Shown here: positions 2,174-26,708 of the stretch, in pieces
Numbering within the stretch: the stretch's first letter is position 1
How the letters are laid out: each line of letters starts with the position of its first letter
Assembly (NCBI GenBank): GCA_016794805.1
Contig: JAEUJI010000349.1
Location: 1-34,497, forward strand
Source of the DNA: Gemmatimonadota bacterium
GTDB lineage: Bacteria; Gemmatimonadota; Gemmatimonadetes; Gemmatimonadales; GWC2-71-9
Direction: 5' to 3'
Length of the DNA stretch: 34,497 bases
Position numbers and translations under genes: made by a program
Notes under the pieces: generated by a model
The model's database searches: none
What the model saw: the letters and a program-made list of their open reading frames with translations, nothing else
Told to the model about the DNA's origin: nothing

Positions 2174-3238
2174 GTGCCGCTGGCCGACGCCCCGATCAGC
2201 GTCCTCGTCGTGGACGACGAAGAGCCGATCCGGAACGCACTCAAGAAGTTCCTCAACCAGCAGGGCTACGACGTGCTCACCGCCCCGTCGGGCGATGAAG
2301 CGTTGCGCATCCTGCAGCGCCAGAAGATCTCGGTGGTGCTGCTGGACGTGCGGATGCCGGGGAAGAGCGGGATCGACCTGGTGCCGCTGCTGCTGGAGCT
2401 GGAGCCGTCGGTCGCCATCCTGATGCTCACCGCCGTCAACGACGCCACCACGGCGGCGCTGTGCATGCAGCGCGGCGCCATGGACTACCTCACCAAGCCG
2501 ATCGACCTCTCCGACCTCGCCCGCGCCATCCTGCGCGCCATCCGGCGCCGCGACAGCCAGATCGAGCAGGCGAACCTCAACCAGTGGCTCAAGGAAGAAG
2601 TGGCGGTCCGCACCGCCGAGCTGCGGCGGGAGCGGGCCAAGCTGGAGCGGTTGTCGGTGGCCACGCTGGAGGCGCTGGTCAACGCCCTCGAGGCCAAGGA
2701 CCCCTTCATCCGGGGCCACTCCGCCCGGGTCGCCGACCTGGGGGCGATGATCGCCGCCGAACTGGGGATGAACGACGAGCAGGTGGAGCAGGTGCGGATG
2801 GCGGGCCGGCTGCATGACATCGGCAAGATCGGCATCCGGGAGGACATCCTCACCAAGCAGGGGCCGCTCACCGCCGACGAGTACGAACTGGTCAAGCAGC
2901 ACGTGGTGATCGGCTCGCAGATCCTGGCGCCGCTGGCGCACCTCGGGGACGTGATCGCCTTCGTGCGCAGCCACCACGAGCGCTGGGACGGCCAGGGCTA
3001 TCCCGACCGGCTGCGGGGGGAGGAGATCACCCTCGGGGCCCGGGTGCTGGGTGCGGCCGAGATCTTCGACGCCCTCACCACCGCGCGGCCGTACCAGGAG
3101 AAGATGCCGCCGGACGTCGCGGTGGAGCGGATGCGCGACCTCGCCGGCAGCGTCCTGGATCCCGGGGTGTACCAGGCCCTCGAGGCCGCGGTCCGGCGCC
3201 GCCAGGCGCTGGTCTTCCTCGACGACGCCCGCACCTGA
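2174..3238 (+). CDS. Response regulator with HD-GYP output domain, probable cyclic-di-GMP phosphodiesterase
   Basis: Residues about 8-125 are a receiver with acidic residues D14/D15, phosphoacceptor D58, T86 and K108 all present. A coiled-coil linker (about 126-160) leads to an HD-GYP domain (about 160-345) with H182, HDIGK (H214, D215), HHE (267-269) and DGQGYP (272-277), the complete catalytic signature. Known members hydrolyse c-di-GMP to pGpG or GMP, lowering the messenger that promotes exopolysaccharide and biofilm formation. The GTG at 2174 gives a normal N-terminus for a receiver. Its place ahead of a receiver, a HEAT protein and a glycosyltransferase on the same strand suggests it tunes that polysaccharide system. 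No cognate histidine kinase is adjacent. Confidence 0.9.
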   Translation: MPLADAPISVLVVDDEEPIRNALKKFLNQQGYDVLTAPSGDEALRILQRQKISVVLLDVRMPGKSGIDLVPLLLELEPSVAILMLTAVNDATTAALCMQRGAMDYLTKPIDLSDLARAILRAIRRRDSQIEQANLNQWLKEEVAVRTAELRRERAKLERLSVATLEALVNALEAKDPFIRGHSARVADLGAMIAAELGMNDEQVEQVRMAGRLHDIGKIGIREDILTKQGPLTADEYELVKQHVVIGSQILAPLAHLGDVIAFVRSHHERWDGQGYPDRLRGEEITLGARVLGAAEIFDALTTARPYQEKMPPDVAVERMRDLAGSVLDPGVYQALEAAVRRRQALVFLDDART

Positions 3239-3320
3239 CGCGCGGACCGCGCCCGCTGCCTGACATGGAGGTCGGCGCGCCGGCCCCTTCTCGCCGCCAC
3301 CCCTCGTCCCTGGGGGCCTC

Positions 3321-3692
3321 ATGTCCCGCCTCGCACTGATCATCGAGGATGATCCCGACCAGCGCCGGCTGCTGGAGCGGATGCTGGGCGCCTCCGGCTG
3401 GCGGGTGGATACCGCCCCCGACGGCGAGGCCGGCCTGGCCCTGGCCCGGGAGCGGCAGCCGCAGGTGATCGTGCTCGACGTCATGATGCCGCGGCTCAAC
3501 GGCTATCAGGCCTGCCGCCGGCTCAGGGCCGACCCCGCCACGGCGGGGATTCCCATCGTCATCGTCACCGCCAAGGACCAGCCGGCCGACGCCTACTGGG
3601 CGAAGGAGGTCGGCGCCGACGCCTTCCTGGCCAAGCCGGTGGACGTGCGGGAACTGGCCGCCCTCCTCGACCGGCTGGCGGGGACCGCGTGA
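3321..3692 (+). CDS. Stand-alone CheY-like receiver protein
   Basis: A single receiver domain of 123 residues with D10/D11, phosphoacceptor D53, T83 and K105, and a canonical KPVD element before the last helix. It has no output domain, so it should act by protein-protein contact, like CheY or PilH. Its TGA overlaps the GTG of the HEAT-repeat gene (GTGA), so the two are translationally coupled, and the HEAT protein is the obvious candidate partner. This partnership is inference from gene order. Confidence 0.88.
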   Translation: MSRLALIIEDDPDQRRLLERMLGASGWRVDTAPDGEAGLALARERQPQVIVLDVMMPRLNGYQACRRLRADPATAGIPIVIVTAKDQPADAYWAKEVGADAFLAKPVDVRELAALLDRLAGTA

Positions 3693-6600
3693 CGCTGCTC
3701 CGCATCATCCTGATCTTCGCCGCCAGCGTGGTGGCGATCGGGGTACTCGCCATCGTGGCCTGGCTGATCTATGCCGGCTACCTGGCGCGGGTGGAGCGCC
3801 GCCTGGCCCGACGGAAGGGACTCTACCGCGAGGTGGTGGCGGGGCTGGCCCAGCGGGAGCGCGCCCTGCTGGAGCCGGAGCTGCACCAGCTCCGTACCCT
3901 GCGGGACTTCGAGGCCCTCGAGGCCCTGCTGGAGGAACAGGCGCGCGGCTTCACCGAGCGTCCCGCCTGGCTGCTCGACACCTACGACCGCCTCGGGCTG
4001 GTGGACAAGTACGTGGAGCGGATCCGCCACGCCAGGAAATGGCGGGAGCGGGCCTTTGCCGCCGAGCTGCTCGGGCGGGTCGGCAACGCCAAGGCGGTGC
4101 CGGCGCTGCTGGAGACCATCCAGGCCACCCGGAGCGAGGATGGCGACGTCCGGGAGATCGCGCTCCGCGCCCTCGCCCGGATCGGCGACCCGCGCGCGGT
4201 GCTGCCGCTGGTGGAGGCGCTCAAGCTGGCGGAGAACTGGCTCGCGCCCCGCATCGCCGACATCCTGGTGCGCCACGGCGACCCCGTGGTCGAGCCGATC
4301 CTCGCCTTCCTGAGCGATCCCACCCGTCACCCCGCCCGCGCCTGGGCCGCCAACATCCTGGGCGAGCTCAAGGTGCAGCGCGCCTTTCCGGTGCTGGTGG
4401 CCGCGCTCAAGGACCTCGACGACGAGGTCCGGGCCAAGGCGGCCGGCGCCCTCGGCAAGCTGGGCGACCGCCGCGCGGTTACCTACCTCCTCGACCACCT
4501 GCTCTCCGATCCCGCTCCCTTCGTGCGGGCCCGGATCGCCGGCGCGCTGGGGCAGTTCGCCGACGGCGAGGTCATCGACCGGCTGGTGCGGGCGCTGGGC
4601 GATCCCGCCTGGTGGGTGCGGATGCGGAGCGTCGAAGCGCTGGAGCAGATCGGCCCCACCGCGGAGTCGCCGCTCTCCGTGGCGCTGGACGACCCCGATC
4701 CCGAGATCCGCATCCGGGCCGCCGTGGCGCTGGAGCGGCTCGGCGTGCCCACCCGGCTCATGCAGACCATCGAGCGGGGCGAGGACACCCCGGACACCCA
4801 CGCGATGCTGGTCAAGTTCGGGGTCGCGGGCGCCCGCGAGCTGCTGGCCGAGCACCTGCACCATCCCGCGCCGCGGGTCCGGCGGGCCATCATCGCCGCC
4901 ATCCGGGAGGCGGAGCGCCGCGACCTCGGCACCGAGCTGGTGGAGGTCGCCCGGACCGACGCGGACGCCCTCCTCCGCGCCGACGCCTTCGACGCGCTGC
5001 ACGCGCTCGCGGTGCGGGAGGCGGTGCCCGCGGCCCTCGACGCCCTGGGCGACGCCGACGAACGGGTGCGCGCGGCGGCCACCGGCCTGATCGGCGACCT
5101 GGGCGGGAGCGAGCTCGCCGCGGTGATCCTGCCGCGGTCCTCCGACCGCGAGCCGCTGGTCCGCGCGGCCGCGGCGCGCGCGCTGGGGCTGATCCACGCC
5201 AGCGGCGCCGACCGGGAGTTCACCCGGCTGCTCCGCGACCCGGAGGCGATCGTGCGGGCCGCCGCCGCGGAAGGGGTGGCCGAGACCCGCTGGCCCGGCG
5301 CCGCGCCGGTGCTGGTGGACCTGCTCACCGACGCCGACCCCGCAGTCCGCATCGCGGCGGCGCGCGCCCTCGGCGAGCTCGGCGTCCCCGAGACCGTGGA
5401 ACCGCTGGTACGGGTCTATCGCGACGCCGACCCCGCGTTCGCCGACGCCATCACCGGCGCCGTCGCCCGGATCGACCGCGACGCCCTGGGCGCGATCATC
5501 GACATTCTCCTCGAGCGGGAGGACGCGCCGGGGCGCGCCCGCCTGGTGCGCACCATCGGCGGGCTCCGGCCGCCGCATCCGCTGCAGCTGCTCGAGTCGC
5601 TGTTCCGGGACCGCGCGCCCCCCGTCCGCGCCGCCGCCGCCGACGTGCTGGGCCGCACCAACGACGAGCGCGCCGCGGGGCTGCTGCTCCACGGGCTCGA
5701 CGATCCCGACGAGCAGGTCCGGGCCCAGGCCGTGGACGGCCTGGTGCGGCTCGGCCAGCAGGGGGCCTCGCTCCGGCTGCTCACCCTGCTGCGGGAGGAT
5801 CCCTCCCCGCTGGTGCGGGAGCGGGCCGCCCTCGCCACCGGGATCTTCCGGCCACCGGGCGGCGAGGTGCAGCTGCTGGCCATCTGCCACCAGGACCAGC
5901 CGATCGGCGTCCGCGCCGCGTCGGTGCTGGCCCTCGGCTCCTACGACCAGGAGAGCCTGGTGGCGCGGGTGGTGGAGATGGCCGACGAGCACGAGCTGCG
6001 CGAGCTGCTCCGGGACCGCCTCCGGCACGATGCCGAGTTCCGCCTGCTCGGCCTCCGCCTGCGCGAGGCGCGCCACGTCGAGCTCCGCGCCCTGGGCAGC
6101 ACCAGCCGGGAGCAGATGGAGCAGATCCTCGCCGACGGCATGCGCGGGGTGCTCTCGCCCGAGCAGCGGGTGCGGCTGGTGGCCGGCCTCCGGGTGTTCC
6201 AGGGGGAGCGGAGCCGGGGCGCCCTGCTGAGCGTCGTGCGCAGCGACCCGAGCCCCGAGGTCCGGGCCACGGCGCTCACCGCGGTGGGCGGCATGCTGGA
6301 CGCGGACGAGCTGCACCTCACCGCCAGCCGCGCCCTGGCCGATCCCCACCGCAGCGTGCGCCACGCGGCGGTGGCGCTGTTCCAGCGGGTGGCTCCCGAG
6401 AAGGGCCTGGGCGGCCTGCTCCGCCTGCTCCGCTCCGAGGACGATCCGGTGGTGCTCAAGGCCGTGGCGGAACAGGCCGAGGCGGCCTTCCCCGCCTTCC
6501 TCGACCTGGCGCTGGGGATGGACCACGAGGGCCAGGAGGCGGTGCTGCTGGCCCGGATCGCGCGGCACATGCATCACCCCGACCTCAAGCGGGTGATCGC

Positions 6601-7201
6601 CGCCGTGGGCCAGAGCCAGGCGGCGCCGGTCCGGGAGGCGGTGGCGGAGCTCTGGGCCACGCGGCCGGACCTGGTGGATCTCCCGGCCCTGGAGGGCCTC
6701 ACCGTGGACCCCACGGTGAGCGTCCGGCGCGGGGCGGTGGCGGCGTGGGCGGCGGCGGGCCAGTTCGACCGGCTGGCCGCGATGCTCGGCGATCCCGATC
6801 CGGCGGTGCGCCGGGACATCGCGCTGGCCTTCCTCGATGCCCGGGAGACCGCCGCGCTGGAGCCGCTTTTCCTCGATCCGGACGAGGCGGTGCGCGCCGC
6901 GCTCTTCGCTACCCGGCTGCTCCGGGGCGAGTGGCGGGAGCCGCCGGCGAGCTTCGCCATCTCGCGCGCGGCGGCCGCCGACGCCATCCGGCAGGCCCAG
7001 CCGGTCGAGACCCTGCGCGAGATCGCGCGCGAGGAGCGGGACGCCGAGCGGCGGCTGTCGGCCGCGCTGGCGCTGGCGGTGCTGGGCGACGAGGCGGCCT
7101 ACGCCGTGATGCGCGCCGACCCGCTCCGGGCCCTCCGCGACCAGGTGGGCCGGATGCTGGCGGGCTGGCGCGAGCCGCCCGACTCGCGCCACAGCGCATG
7201 A
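3689..7201 (+). CDS. Membrane-anchored HEAT-repeat scaffold protein (1170 aa)
   Basis: One N-terminal transmembrane helix (residues 3-29) is followed by a basic stretch (RVERRLARRK), so the remaining 1130 residues should lie in the cytoplasm. The body is a long array of HEAT/PBS-lyase-like repeats of about 31 residues, with recurrent 'DPxxxVRxxAAxALGxLG' type units; more than twenty can be counted by eye. HEAT solenoids bind other proteins and have no chemistry of their own. The gene begins on the stop codon of the CheY-like gene and ends on the start codon of the glycosyltransferase (ATGA), implying fixed stoichiometry. A plausible job is to link phosphorylated receiver to glycosyltransferase at the membrane. 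The length and lack of any catalytic domain are notable. Confidence 0.85.
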   Translation: MTLLRIILIFAASVVAIGVLAIVAWLIYAGYLARVERRLARRKGLYREVVAGLAQRERALLEPELHQLRTLRDFEALEALLEEQARGFTERPAWLLDTYDRLGLVDKYVERIRHARKWRERAFAAELLGRVGNAKAVPALLETIQATRSEDGDVREIALRALARIGDPRAVLPLVEALKLAENWLAPRIADILVRHGDPVVEPILAFLSDPTRHPARAWAANILGELKVQRAFPVLVAALKDLDDEVRAKAAGALGKLGDRRAVTYLLDHLLSDPAPFVRARIAGALGQFADGEVIDRLVRALGDPAWWVRMRSVEALEQIGPTAESPLSVALDDPDPEIRIRAAVALERLGVPTRLMQTIERGEDTPDTHAMLVKFGVAGARELLAEHLHHPAPRVRRAIIAAIREAERRDLGTELVEVARTDADALLRADAFDALHALAVREAVPAALDALGDADERVRAAATGLIGDLGGSELAAVILPRSSDREPLVRAAAARALGLIHASGADREFTRLLRDPEAIVRAAAAEGVAETRWPGAAPVLVDLLTDADPAVRIAAARALGELGVPETVEPLVRVYRDADPAFADAITGAVARIDRDALGAIIDILLEREDAPGRARLVRTIGGLRPPHPLQLLESLFRDRAPPVRAAAADVLGRTNDERAAGLLLHGLDDPDEQVRAQAVDGLVRLGQQGASLRLLTLLREDPSPLVRERAALATGIFRPPGGEVQLLAICHQDQPIGVRAASVLALGSYDQESLVARVVEMADEHELRELLRDRLRHDAEFRLLGLRLREARHVELRALGSTSREQMEQILADGMRGVLSPEQRVRLVAGLRVFQGERSRGALLSVVRSDPSPEVRATALTAVGGMLDADELHLTASRALADPHRSVRHAAVALFQRVAPEKGLGGLLRLLRSEDDPVVLKAVAEQAEAAFPAFLDLALGMDHEGQEAVLLARIARHMHHPDLKRVIAAVGQSQAAPVREAVAELWATRPDLVDLPALEGLTVDPTVSVRRGAVAAWAAAGQFDRLAAMLGDPDPAVRRDIALAFLDARETAALEPLFLDPDEAVRAALFATRLLRGEWREPPASFAISRAAAADAIRQAQPVETLREIAREERDAERRLSAALALAVLGDEAAYAVMRADPLRALRDQVGRMLAGWREPPDSRHSA

Positions 7202-8760
7202 GCGGCGATACCCTCGCCGCGGTGGCGTCGGCGATCGGCCTGGTGCTGCAGCCGGTCTTCCTGGGGTATTTCCTGCTCTACAACGGCTACATGCTGCTGC
7301 TGATCCTGCTGTCCGCCCGCCAGGTGCGGCGGCGGGTGGCGGGCCATTTCGTCGAGGACCTCGACCTCATCGACGAGAGCGACTACACCAAGCCGCTCAC
7401 GATGGTGGTGCCGGCGTTCAACGAGGAAGTGACCATCGTGGACAGCGTCACCAACCTGGTCCACTGCGATTACCCGCGGTTCGAGGTCGTGGTGGTGAAC
7501 GACGGCTCCAGCGACCGCACCCTCGAAGTGCTGAAGCAGGCCTTCCGGCTCCGCCGCACCGACCTCCCCTACCGCGACGCGATCGGCACCGCGCGGGTGC
7601 GGGCGATGTACGTCGCCACCCTGCCGCTTCCGGCCGGCGTCTCCCAGCTCATCGTCATCGACAAGGAGAACGCCGGCAAGGCGGACGCGCTCAACGCCGG
7701 CATCAACGTCTCCACCGCGCCCTACTTCGTGAGCCTCGACGCCGACAGCATCCTGGACCAGCGGGCGCTCAAGGAGCTGATGCGCATGGTACAGGAGGAC
7801 CCGCGGATCGTGGCGGTGGGCGGCCAGGTTGCCATCGCCAACGGCTGCACCATCCGGGGCGGCCGGGTCGTGAGCGTGGGGCTCCCGACCCACCCCTGGG
7901 CCCGGTTCCAGATGGTGGAGTACCTCCGCTCCTTCACCACCGGCCGTACCGGCCTCGACCGGCTCGACTCGGTCCTGATCCTCTCCGGGGTCTTCGCGGT
8001 GTTCGAGAAGGAGACCGTGATCCGCGCCGGCGGGTACCTGACCCCGCTGGTGCTGCACAAGCTGGTGGGGGAGTACGTCGGCGACCGCGCCGGCACCGTG
8101 TGCGAGGACATGGAGATCATCGTGCGGCTGCAGCGGTTCGTGCGGGACAAGCTCCGCCCCCGGCGGATCGCCTTCCTGCCGCACCCGGTGGCCTGGACCG
8201 AGGTGCCGGAGCGGCTGGAGTCGCTGCGCAAGCAGCGGGGGCGGTGGTACCGCGGCCTGCGGGAGTCGCTGTTCTACCATCGCGACATGCTGTTCCGCCG
8301 CAAGTACGGCCGCATCGGGTGGTTCGCGCTCCCCACCTTCTGGCTCTTCGAGTACTACGGCCCCATGATCGAGGCCGTCGGGTACCTCTTCGTCCTGGTC
8401 TTCCTGCTCATGGAGTGGGTCTTCCAGGTCCCGATCCTCAACGAGCAGTACGCCGTCGCCTTCCTGCTGGCGTCGCTCGGCTGGGGCACGCTGGTCAACA
8501 TCTTCGCGGTGCTGGTCGGGGCGTGGCGCTTCCGCTACGGGCTGGCGGACCGGCTGCAGCGCGGGCTGCTCCCCTTCAACCGCCGGCGGGATGTGCTGAT
8601 CCTGCTGGGCTATGCGGTGCTGGAGAACTTCTTCTGGCGCCCGCTCACCCTCTACTGGCGCCTGCGCGGCCTGTGGGACGCCTGGCGCGGGAAGAGCGGC
8701 TGGGAAAAGTTCGCCCGCCAGGGATTCCAGAAACACCCGGAGGCGCCGCGTGCGGCATGA
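7198..8760 (+). CDS. Processive family 2 glycosyltransferase, membrane-embedded (exopolysaccharide synthase type)
   Basis: The 520-residue protein has an N-terminal transmembrane segment (about 17-40), a GT-A catalytic domain and at least three C-terminal membrane segments (about 375-408, 418-442, 464-488). The D, DxD, ED, QxxRW set of processive GT2 enzymes is intact: D102 in NDGSS, DAD at 181-183, ED at 303-304, QRGRW at 346-350. This groups it with PgaC, BcsA and hyaluronan synthases, which polymerise UDP- or GDP-sugars and export the chain. There is no C-terminal PilZ domain, so c-di-GMP control, if any, must be indirect. The start overlaps the HEAT stop by ATGA. The product polymer cannot be predicted. 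Confidence 0.88.
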   Translation: MSGDTLAAVASAIGLVLQPVFLGYFLLYNGYMLLLILLSARQVRRRVAGHFVEDLDLIDESDYTKPLTMVVPAFNEEVTIVDSVTNLVHCDYPRFEVVVVNDGSSDRTLEVLKQAFRLRRTDLPYRDAIGTARVRAMYVATLPLPAGVSQLIVIDKENAGKADALNAGINVSTAPYFVSLDADSILDQRALKELMRMVQEDPRIVAVGGQVAIANGCTIRGGRVVSVGLPTHPWARFQMVEYLRSFTTGRTGLDRLDSVLILSGVFAVFEKETVIRAGGYLTPLVLHKLVGEYVGDRAGTVCEDMEIIVRLQRFVRDKLRPRRIAFLPHPVAWTEVPERLESLRKQRGRWYRGLRESLFYHRDMLFRRKYGRIGWFALPTFWLFEYYGPMIEAVGYLFVLVFLLMEWVFQVPILNEQYAVAFLLASLGWGTLVNIFAVLVGAWRFRYGLADRLQRGLLPFNRRRDVLILLGYAVLENFFWRPLTLYWRLRGLWDAWRGKSGWEKFARQGFQKHPEAPRAA

Positions 8761-9796
8761 AACCCGGCGGCTCCGGGTCCTGGTGGTCGATGACGACCCG
8801 GACTACGCCCGGCTGCTCACCTCCATCGTGGAGCGGCAGGGCCACGGCTCGGTCCAGGTGGCCGGCACCGTCGCGGAAGCGGTGCGGCTCGCGGGCGAGG
8901 CCGACCTGATCCTGCTCGACCACCAGCTCCCCGACGGCGAGGGGCTGGCGGTGCTGCCCGTGGTGCGCGCCGCGGCCAGCCGCCCGGCCGTCATCCTGGT
9001 CACCGCCCATGGCGGCGAGGCGCTCGCCGCCGCCGCCCTGCGCGCCGGCGCGGATGACTACCTGATCAAGGATGCCTCCCTGCCGAGCCTCCTGCCCGAG
9101 GTGCTGGAACGGCAGCGACGGCAGCGGGCGCTGCGGGAGGCGCTCGCCGCGGCGGAGCGGGACCTGGTGCACGCGGAGCGGCTGGCCGCGATCGGCCAGC
9201 TCAACGTCACCCTGCACCACGCGATCAACAATCCGCTGATGGTCGCCTTCGCGGAGGTGGCGCTGCTGCTCGACGATCCCACCGTGCCGGCGGACCACCG
9301 CCCGTCGCTCCACGCCATCCGGATCCAGCTGGACCGGATCCGCGAGACCCTCGCGCGGGTGGGGAGCCTGGGTCACGACGGCACCACGCCCTACATCGCG
9401 AACATCCCGATGATTGACCTCTCCCGGCGCACCGTGCCGATGCCGGTGTACCTCGGGGAGGCGGTGCTGCACCTGCCGGAGCAGGACACCGAACGGGTGG
9501 TGGCCATGCTGCTGCGGCACGCGGGATTCGGGGTCACCCGGGTGACGGGCGCCACGGAGCTGACCAGCCGCGCCTCCGAGCTCGGGGTCGTGGTGGTGCT
9601 GGTGCACGGCAGCGGCGCCCCCGGCACCCATCCGCTCAGCGGCTTCCGCCCTCCGCGGGAGCGTGGCTACCGGGTGGTGGCCCTGGTCCAGGGGGACCCG
9701 GGGCCCGCCCTCGCGGCGGGCGCGGATCATGTCGTGGCGCTGCCCTTCGACCCCGGCACCCTGACAACCGAAGTGCTCGCCACGCTGCGGGACTGA
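8750..9796 (+). CDS. Receiver - DHp (HisKA-like) - pseudoreceiver protein lacking a kinase ATPase domain
   Basis: Residues 8-120 are a receiver with D14-D16, phosphoacceptor D57, T85 and K107. Residues about 128-205 look like a HisKA dimerisation helix pair, with AERLAAIGQLN followed by an H-box HHAINNPL (H157); the acidic residue that normally follows the histidine is Ala158. No HATPase domain follows. Instead residues about 232-348 form a receiver-like alpha/beta unit without a usable aspartate at the acceptor position (VVVVLVHGS). It may be a phosphotransfer protein, passing phosphate from D57 to H157, or a non-catalytic dimer adaptor. The GTG at 8750 lies within the end of the glycosyltransferase gene, with GGAGG 5-9 nt before it; longer starts extend further into that gene and are rejected. 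Confidence 0.75.
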   Translation: MRHETRRLRVLVVDDDPDYARLLTSIVERQGHGSVQVAGTVAEAVRLAGEADLILLDHQLPDGEGLAVLPVVRAAASRPAVILVTAHGGEALAAAALRAGADDYLIKDASLPSLLPEVLERQRRQRALREALAAAERDLVHAERLAAIGQLNVTLHHAINNPLMVAFAEVALLLDDPTVPADHRPSLHAIRIQLDRIRETLARVGSLGHDGTTPYIANIPMIDLSRRTVPMPVYLGEAVLHLPEQDTERVVAMLLRHAGFGVTRVTGATELTSRASELGVVVVLVHGSGAPGTHPLSGFRPPRERGYRVVALVQGDPGPALAAGADHVVALPFDPGTLTTEVLATLRD

Positions 9797-23874: not shown

Positions 23875-25014
23875 GTGAATGGTCTCAGGCGCCGGCTCTG
23901 CGCCAGCGCGTTCGTCGTCCTTCCCGTCGCCGCATCACTCCTTGCCTGTTCCCCCCGCACCGGGCCCGTGGTCATCGGCCTCGCGGGACCGTTTACCGAT
24001 TCGGTCGGCGCCCCGATGCGGCGCGCCGCCGCCCTGGCGGTGGAACAGATCAACGCGGCGGGCGGCATCAACGGCCAGCCGGTGCGGCTGCTCATCCGCG
24101 ACGATTACGGCGATCCCGACTCGGCGGTGAACGCGGCCAGCGCGCTCGAGGCGGCCGGCGTCGTCGCGGTGATCGGGCATGTCTACTCCGGCACCAGCCT
24201 CGCCGCCGCGCCGGTCTACAACGGCGCCGCGCGGCCGGTCCTGCAGGTCTCGCCCAGCTCATCGGCACCCGCGCTCACCGGGGCCGGCGACTACACCTTC
24301 CGCACCTGCCCCAGCGACCTGCAGATGGGCGCGGCGCTGGCGCAGTTCGCGGCCAATCGCCTCGGACTCACGCGCGGCACCATCCTCTACTTGAACGACG
24401 AGTACGGCCGCGGCATCCGCACCACCTTTGCCAGCGAATTCTCCCGGCAGGGCGGCCTGATCGAGGACCAGGCGCCGTACCTCGGTGATGCGCCCGACGT
24501 CGGGCCGTACCTCGACCGCATCGTGCGGCGGAAGAGCAGCCAGTTCATCTTCGCCGGCGGCAACCGCAGCGAGGCGGAGGCGATGCTCCGCGCCGCCCAC
24601 GCCCGCGGGCTGCAGCTCCCGTTCCTCGGCGGCGACGCCCTCGAGGGCATCGAGGAAAGTGGCGCGCTGGCGGAGGGGGTCTACGTCTCCAACGCCTACC
24701 TCGCGAGCTTCGACACCCCGAAGAACCGCGCCTTCGTGCTCGACTACCTGCGGAAGTACCCCACTGCGCTCCCGCCCAACCAGCCGGCGGCGGCGACCTA
24801 CGACATTCTCTTCATGCTGCGGGACGTGATCGCGCGGGTGGGCACCGACCGGCGCGCCATCCGCAACGCGGTGGCGGCGATCGGCCAGAGCGCGCCCCCG
24901 TTCGAGGGCGTCACCGGCGAGATCGCCTTCGATGCGGCCGGTGATGTGCCCCGCCAGCGGGTGATCATCGGGCGGGTCACCGGCGGCCGCGTGGTCGCGG
25001 TGGAGGAGCTGTGA
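23875..25014 (+). CDS. Periplasmic ligand-binding lipoprotein, branched-chain amino acid type (Peripla_BP_6)
   Basis: A lipoprotein signal peptide with lipobox SLLAC (Cys25) is followed by a type I periplasmic-binding fold: '[19 protein letters not shown]', '[17 protein letters not shown]', '[17 protein letters not shown]' and 'YLNDEYGRG' are signature segments of the LivJ-like family. The GTG at 23875 has GGAG 7 nt upstream. Its stop overlaps the GTG of a chemoreceptor gene, and no ABC permease or ATPase genes are present. It therefore probably presents a small ligand (amino acid, amide or similar) to the chemoreceptor rather than to a transporter; the ligand is unknown. Confidence 0.85.
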
Positions 25015-26708
25015 ACATCCTCTACCGCAGCCTGCGGCGCCTGAACGCCGTCACCGTGGTCAGCACCATCCTCCTGGTGCTGGGCATGGCGCTCGTCGCG
25101 GTCCTCGCGCTGCGCACCATCACCCGGCGAATGGAAGCGGATATCGCGACCCTCGGCGACGGTGCCCGGCTGAGCAGTTCCCTGGTCTCGGCCGTCCTGA
25201 CCCAGATCCGCTCCGCCGAGCACTACCTGCTCACCCCCAGCAGCGCCACCAAGTCGGAGTTCCTCAGCAGCGGGGACTCCGCCTACACCATCCAGTCCCG
25301 GCTCCGCTCCCTCGCCAATCTCGACAACCGCGACCGGCGCCTCATCAACCTGGTCGGGGCCAGCCAGGCGGAACTCGAGGTGGCCTACGCCACCGCGCAT
25401 GCGCTGGCGGACGTGGGACGCCGGGACGACGCGCTCCTGATCGCCGCCCGCGCCGGCGGCGCCACCGACAGCCTCGTCGCGGTGGTGCGCACCCTGAGCG
25501 ACGCCCAGAGCGCCCATGCGCAGGAGCGCGCGGCGGCCCTGAGCGACCGCGCCGGGTTCTTCCAGAAGCTGCTCATTGCCTGCGCCATCCTGGCGCTCCT
25601 GCTGGCGATCACCGCGGGCCTCGCCCTCATCCGGCTGGTGGACCGCCAGATGAACCGGCTGATCGCCGCGGCGGATCGCTTCGGCGCCGGCGACCTCCGC
25701 CCCATGCAGCTCGGCCACATGCCCGACGAGCTCGCCCGGCTGGGCCGCGCCATGGACGACATGGCCGGCCGGCTGCGGCGGGTGGTGCAGGCGGTGGTCC
25801 AGGAATCCCACCAGCTCTCCGGCAACGCCGGGGATTTTTCCGCCATGAGCGAGGAGATCGCCGCCTCGAGCGGCGAGATCTCGGCCGCGATGGTCCGCAT
25901 CTCCGAGGGCGCCGAGCACCAGGTGCAGGGGATGACCGAGGCGGACCAGCTCCTCGCCCGGCTGCGGGAAGCCTCCGCCTCGAACGCCGAGGCGGCCCAG
26001 AAGGCGGTGCGCCTGGCCGAGGAGATCCGCCGCACGGCGCTCCGCTACCGCGGCGACGTCGGGGCGGCCCGCTCCACCCTGCTCGACATCCGCGAGGTGG
26101 TGCAGACCAGCTCGCAGCAGGTCCGGGCGCTGGTGGCCCAGTCGGAGTCCATCACCGACTTCATCGACCTCATCAAGCAGATCTCCTCCCAGACCAACCT
26201 GCTCGCGCTCAACGCCGCGATCGAGGCGGCCCGGGCCGGTGAGCATGGCCGCGGGTTCGCCGTGGTGGCGGACGAAGTGCGCCAGCTTGCCGACTCAAGC
26301 GCCCGCGCGGCGCGCGAGGTGACCAAGACGGTCGAGTTCCTCCGGGGCCAGATCCGGGAGATCGCCGAGACGATGCAGGTGGGCACCACCAAGGTGGGCG
26401 GGATCGAGTCGGTGGCGCAGGCCGTGGTCGAAGGCCTCGACACCATCGGGGTCGCGATCGGGGAGGTGCAGACCGCGGCCACGACCCTGTCGCAGCAGGC
26501 AGGCCAGAACCGGGATGTGGTCGGGGAGCTGGCCGGCCGCACCGCCCTCGTCGCGCGGGCCGCCTCGGAGCACGCCTCGGCCAGCGAGGAGGTGTCCGCG
26601 GCCGCCGAACAGCAGAGCGCGTCCACCGAGGACATGGCGGCCAACGCCACCGCCCTCCTGGACGCGAGTACCCGGCTGTCGAAGCTGGTGGGAGAGTTCC
26701 GGACCTAG
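25011..26708 (+). CDS. Methyl-accepting chemotaxis protein
   Basis: Two transmembrane helices (about 12-34 and 187-208) enclose a helical periplasmic domain of about 150 residues resembling a four-helix-bundle sensor. A HAMP domain follows (about 209-262), then the long signalling coiled coil with the canonical tip [20 protein letters not shown] (391-410) and [11 protein letters not shown] (413-423). There is no C-terminal pentapeptide for CheR/CheB tethering; it ends GEFRT. The GTG at 25011 overlaps the upstream stop (GTGA) and has GGAGG before it. It should control CheA, encoded elsewhere, using the coupled binding protein as its sensor. Confidence 0.93.

Follow-up and report, generated by a model that had tools for sequence, protein, structure and literature searches.

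How would a processive polysaccharide synthase be controlled when the place of the cyclic di-GMP (c-di-GMP) receptor or co-polymerase beside it holds no PilZ domain and is occupied by a HEAT-repeat protein? The question is raised by a locus in a Gemmatimonadota draft genome (72% GC, 3.9 Mb; assembly GCA_016794805.1), on a 34,497-nucleotide stretch of contig JAEUJI010000349.1 that was analyzed as a whole (the window). The best studied synthase-dependent exopolysaccharide (EPS) systems are controlled by c-di-GMP receptors. In the window, three consecutive genes on the + strand encode a stand-alone CheY-type receiver (cassette gene 1; 3321–3692, 123 aa), a membrane-anchored HEAT-repeat protein that is the predicted synthase adaptor (3689–7201, 1170 aa), and a processive-type family 2 glycosyltransferase (GT2) polysaccharide synthase (7198–8760, 520 aa). 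On balance, we favor the explanation that CheY–HEAT–GT2 is an exopolysaccharide cassette in which the HEAT adaptor and a phosphorylated receiver, not PilZ, control the synthase.

An original prediction for this locus had been made from the DNA letters by a model. Open reading frames and Pfam scans bear out its five genes, their coordinates, overlaps, and domains, the lack of a PilZ domain in the window GT2, and the phospho-acceptor positions D53 of CheY and D57 of a receiver-DHp protein encoded downstream. CheY (Pfam Response_reg, 99.8 bits) has the acidic pair, phospho-Asp, Thr/Ser, and Lys of a CheY-type receiver intact (D10, D11, D53, T83, and K105). Its gene is joined to the HEAT gene (HEAT_2, 314 bits over 11 stretches) through GTGA at 3689–3692, and the HEAT gene to that of the GT2 (Glyco_tranf_2_3 and Glycos_transf_2) through ATGA at 7198–7201. 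No catalytic residue of the GT2 (D102, D163, D181, D183, D304, Q346, R349, and W350) is missing from more than one of 105 relatives. Its DxD, ED, and QxxRW motifs, together with a fold like those of hyaluronan synthase (HAS), BcsA, and chitin synthase, place it among the processive membrane GT2s.

One genome per species was scanned with a GT2 alignment, and the 80 best relatives, from about 12 phylum-level groups going by record titles, were taken (their loci are denoted by L numbers). A HEAT gene lies directly upstream of the GT2 gene on the same strand in 62 of the 69 loci with enough upstream sequence, and no more than 4.5 kb upstream in 65 of these, with a median HEAT–GT2 spacing of –4 bp and an overlap in 47/63. 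Where more upstream sequence was available, a receiver-bearing gene directly precedes the HEAT gene in 49/60 loci and a receiver is found somewhere nearby in 55/60; the phospho-acceptor Asp is kept in 53 of the 54 HEAT-adjoining receivers. The HEAT profile is found in just 71 of the 856 genes called across these loci, so most HEAT genes are GT2 partners. As controls, seven further GT2 loci in the window's genome were inspected, and neither HEAT nor a receiver was detected within about 1.5 kb of them; the stretches examined at the pga and yai loci of E. coli and around three distant GT2 paralogues likewise gave no match to either. The adjacency of HEAT to this GT2 across some 12 phyla is not due to chance, and the receiver–HEAT–GT2 order, on which the original prediction depended, is conserved far beyond this strain.

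A mixed alignment of HEAT and GT2 rows (A4) was used once row placement had been checked in trial MAFFT runs. The family falls into two sub-types. The GT2 tree puts the window in a group of 18 rows together with Myxococcota, Nitrospirota, and Krumholzibacteriota (moderate support, 80); a separate 74 rows include the other Gemmatimonadota. In the window group, complete HEAT proteins encoded beside the GT2 mostly have lengths of about 1,130–1,220 aa; in the second group the usual length is 330–450 aa. The long-HEAT sub-type is marked by a 16-residue insertion region of the GT2 immediately ahead of the ED motif (8029–8109, +): the GGY-to-ED distance is 25 residues in 23/23 long-clade GT2s, vs. 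9 in 78/82 and 14 in 4/82 short-clade ones. After near relatives, the best single-domain matches of the window CheY are the receivers of Myxococcota long-clade loci (L071–L073). The GT2 and CheY of the window agree in indicating this long-HEAT clade, which includes Myxococcota.

Several members of the family depart from the usual gene structure. In two Myxococcota long-clade loci (L071:6508–11407 and L072), a histidine kinase and a receiver are encoded downstream of the GT2 with no HEAT gene nearby, and in L071 a PEGA-domain gene lies upstream of the GT2. In L068 (7919–9313, –), a same-family GT2 adjoining a HEAT gene no longer has the catalytic motifs, with GPN in place of DxD, VP of ED, and RTRRAW of QRxRW, and is by its sequence probably a pseudo-synthase retained beside HEAT. 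In L147 (7962–11693, +), the GT2 continues in frame for about 770 residues, starting with another membrane-spanning stretch; Pfam gave no match to this extension.

The HEAT protein begins with an N-terminal transmembrane helix followed by an Arg-rich stretch (3698–3784, +; the start of a predicted helix spanning residues 2–55). An N-terminal transmembrane segment is detectable in 84 HEAT homologues, and in every one of them the side behind it is positively charged and rich in Lys and Arg, which by the positive-inside rule places the HEAT repeats in the cytoplasm. Pfam and AlphaFold agree on an alpha-solenoid array: the window protein, modeled from nine sequences, is predicted to be helical throughout, a single long N-terminal helix leading into the array (mean predicted local distance difference test score (pLDDT) 86.1, predicted template modeling score (pTM) 0.61). 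For a HEAT–GT2 chain from L090, AlphaFold gave pLDDT 90.6 and pTM 0.82, against about 0.55 by our own estimate for an undefined relative placement of HEAT and GT2, with a disordered linker at residues 420–453. HEAT is thereby predicted to dock on the GT2, in agreement with the interface that the original prediction had called for. The chain itself (L090:6594–9401, +) reads HEAT and GT2 in one frame on the finished chromosome of Rubrobacter marinus. Its linker resembles a frameshifted HEAT tail; we rejected it as a true fusion, since it is probably a frameshift, and used it only as a chain to fold.

In the mechanism that we propose, the GT2 would polymerise sugar at the inner membrane, the chain leaving through the enzyme's own transmembrane helices. 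The HEAT protein would be held beside it by its one-helix anchor, with the repeats in the cytoplasm docked on the synthase. Once phosphorylated by a kinase from another locus, the receiver would bind or release the HEAT array and so turn the synthase on or off. Phospho-dependence and the direction of control, like the export route, the identity of the polymer, and any effect of c-di-GMP, are what we infer.

Relatives often encode a REC-GGDEF-REC protein, a hybrid kinase, and a tetratricopeptide repeat (TPR) protein beside the cassette. The absence of a cognate kinase, stated in the original prediction, holds for the window locus; for the family it does not, as hybrid kinases and Hpt genes adjoin the module in several relatives. 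A Fidelibacterota locus (L135) encodes, in order, Hpt, a receiver, a hybrid kinase, Hpt-REC-GGDEF-REC, a receiver, HEAT, GT2, and a TPR protein with a YaiO barrel. A TPR gene directly follows the GT2 in 34 related loci, in a cluster built by similarity that may chain unrelated TPR genes, and a YaiO domain was confirmed in those tested (L135, L064, and L121). A GH16 gene lies two genes downstream of the GT2 in a Rubrobacter locus. These TPR/YaiO and GH16 genes near the GT2 favor an extracellular polysaccharide. In L121 (2614–4911, +), the GT2 is fused in frame to the YaiO outer-membrane barrel (33.0 bits vs. a cut-off of 32), a chain that is perhaps cleaved or an assembly error.

Several observations weigh against control of the synthase by receiver and HEAT adaptor. 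Several close relatives retain HEAT and GT2 but have no CheY, so the stand-alone receiver is dispensable there. Some long-clade GT2s (L071, L072, and L076) have no HEAT gene nearby. At the window locus no kinase adjoins the cassette, and neither an exporter nor the combination of a periplasmic TPR protein with an outer-membrane pore was found, nor was a YaiO domain found in the genome. The docking prediction comes from one chain of a short-HEAT relative, a probable frameshift read-through, folded without a non-cognate control. With these points included, the phospho-controlled, HEAT-linked synthase of the original prediction stands as the best reading, given the conserved gene order, the cytoplasmic HEAT array, and the predicted docking; the phospho-control is the part we infer.

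The rival that survives best, although we think it rather unlikely, makes HEAT a structural subunit of the synthase, a co-polymerase or assembly platform, with the receiver a bystander or acting on other targets. PgaD, BcsB, and Alg44 are such partners of their synthases. HEAT is also the steadier partner of the GT2 (62/69, vs. 49/60 for the receiver), its docking is predicted with confidence, and close relatives (L084, L085, L180, and L181) keep HEAT–GT2 without a CheY gene. Where CheY is missing, however, a receiver-bearing HD-GYP gene directly precedes HEAT, and the near-complete retention of the phospho-Asp in HEAT-adjoining receivers also speaks for receiver control.

The genes flanking the cassette on either side have a different history. 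Upstream, a response regulator with an HD-GYP phosphodiesterase domain (2174–3238, +, 354 aa; HD_5 134.8 bits, Response_reg 103.5 bits) has both motifs, HDIGKIG and HHERWDGQGYP, intact. Downstream, a receiver–DHp–degenerate receiver protein (8750–9796, +, 348 aa; Response_reg 77.8 bits) starts with GTG at 8750, overlapping the GT2 gene by 11 bp (8750–8760). Its HisKA match is weak (17.1 bits vs. a cut-off of 26.9), and because Pfam finds no HATPase domain in it, the protein is not a kinase; its additional C-terminal third domain is receiver-like but lacks the Asp. Both this Asp-less domain and an HHxINNPLM box are conserved in receiver-DHp relatives.

Receiver-DHp proteins were found in 25 of the 102 genomes of the family, mostly encoded directly behind an HD-GYP gene, downstream of mqnD and without CheY–HEAT–GT2. 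The gap between the two genes is –8 to +51 bp in the 15 relatives where both are resolved without an insert, and about 5.5 kb in two cassette carriers (L176 and L179). The adjacent pair also occurs in genomes without such a GT2. The exact five-gene order is shared by L079, L082, and the window; three other close relatives (L084, L085, and L181) have HD-GYP–HEAT–GT2 with neither CheY nor receiver-DHp, and in L045 and L180 CheY is absent and the loci stop at a contig edge. Because the pair is adjacent in cassette-free relatives, the five-gene locus is a composite, with the cassette inside an older pair. This placement is seen only in the window's lineage, and may have arisen by a single insertion with later losses or by repeated transfer. 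We therefore rejected receiver-DHp as a cassette member. The pair is in its own right a cassette-free two-gene system in the family, with a DHp protein unable to autophosphorylate.

The original prediction had placed all five genes in one unit, and a rival in this form, with c-di-GMP as an integral input, can be maintained at low probability. The shared five-gene order and the 11-bp overlap agree with it, and c-di-GMP enzymes are recurrent neighbors, a GGDEF domain being found near the module in 36/60 relatives. It is not supported by the 15 relatives whose HD-GYP and receiver-DHp genes adjoin with no cassette between them, some of them lacking such a GT2 altogether, nor by the loci with no receiver-DHp downstream (L084, L085, and L181). 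Since HD-GYP belongs to the older pair, a role for it in setting c-di-GMP for this synthase is plausible by operon position only. With 11 GGDEF and two PilZ matches in the host genome, c-di-GMP signaling is plausible, and in the window's lineage the flanking pair may co-express a c-di-GMP phosphodiesterase with the cassette.

Tests of whether the GT2 belongs to the PNAG (poly-N-acetylglucosamine), cellulose, or YaiP family were negative or showed no more than a distant relation. That the GT2 is one of the known synthases (PNAG-, cellulose-, or hyaluronan-like), with a HEAT gene beside it by chance synteny, is largely refuted and very improbable. Its best NCBIfam model is TIGR03937 (PgaC/IcaA) and the folds are like those of HAS and BcsA, but the TIGR03937 score is 117.4 bits vs. 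a curated cut-off of 422.3, identity to E. coli PgaC and likewise to YaiP is about 25%, the GT2 tree separates the ingroup from both, and HEAT adjacency spans about 12 phyla with control GT2 loci lacking it.

Elsewhere in the window (23968–26708), a gene for a periplasmic-binding-protein-like protein overlaps one for a HAMP/MCP chemoreceptor, a candidate ligand–receptor pair.

Comparison with known systems supports a related but distinct module. A survey (PMC7112194) describes five synthase-dependent EPS systems (cellulose, acetylated cellulose, PNAG, alginate, and Pel), with partners other than HEAT, which it does not mention. Like these, the module has an inner-membrane processive synthase, a regulatory partner gene, and c-di-GMP enzymes nearby, as well as, in relatives, a TPR gene with an outer-membrane barrel in tested cases; unlike them, its partners are HEAT and a receiver in place of a PilZ, PgaD, or PelD c-di-GMP receptor, and its synthase lies outside those families. 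The PNAG system (PgaC/PgaD and PgaA) shares the GT2 fold class and, with cassette relatives, the logic of a TPR and barrel exporter, but its PgaC is set apart by the identity and cut-off given above, and no PgaB-like deacetylase was seen beside the family members examined. The E. coli yaiO–yaiP–yaiS locus combines a YaiO-family barrel with a GT2, yet lacks HEAT and the receiver. Judged from the L090 model, the solved structures closest in fold are those of hyaluronan, cellulose, and chitin synthases, which share the QxxRW motif but have no HEAT adaptor and only 11–18% sequence identity. No description of a receiver–HEAT–GT2 module, nor anything relevant that links HEAT with GGDEF or c-di-GMP or deals with YaiO/YaiP, was found in the open-access literature (subscription papers lay outside the search), where the 'HEAT repeat' work reached concerned Xanthomonas XopN.

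The module looks like a widespread, unnamed variant of synthase-dependent polysaccharide systems with control unlike that of the textbook ones. More tentatively, and at somewhat less than even chances, it may represent a further, unrecognized class of synthase-dependent polysaccharide secretion system, spread over about a dozen phyla: here a phosphorelay receiver would gate synthesis through a docked cytoplasmic HEAT adaptor, with or without c-di-GMP enzymes. If this is true, receiver–HEAT–GT2 would be a second, protein-mediated switch for such synthases in many phyla, and the module would flag, in phyla that have been little studied, polysaccharide loci for which current models give no more than generic GT2 and HEAT genes.

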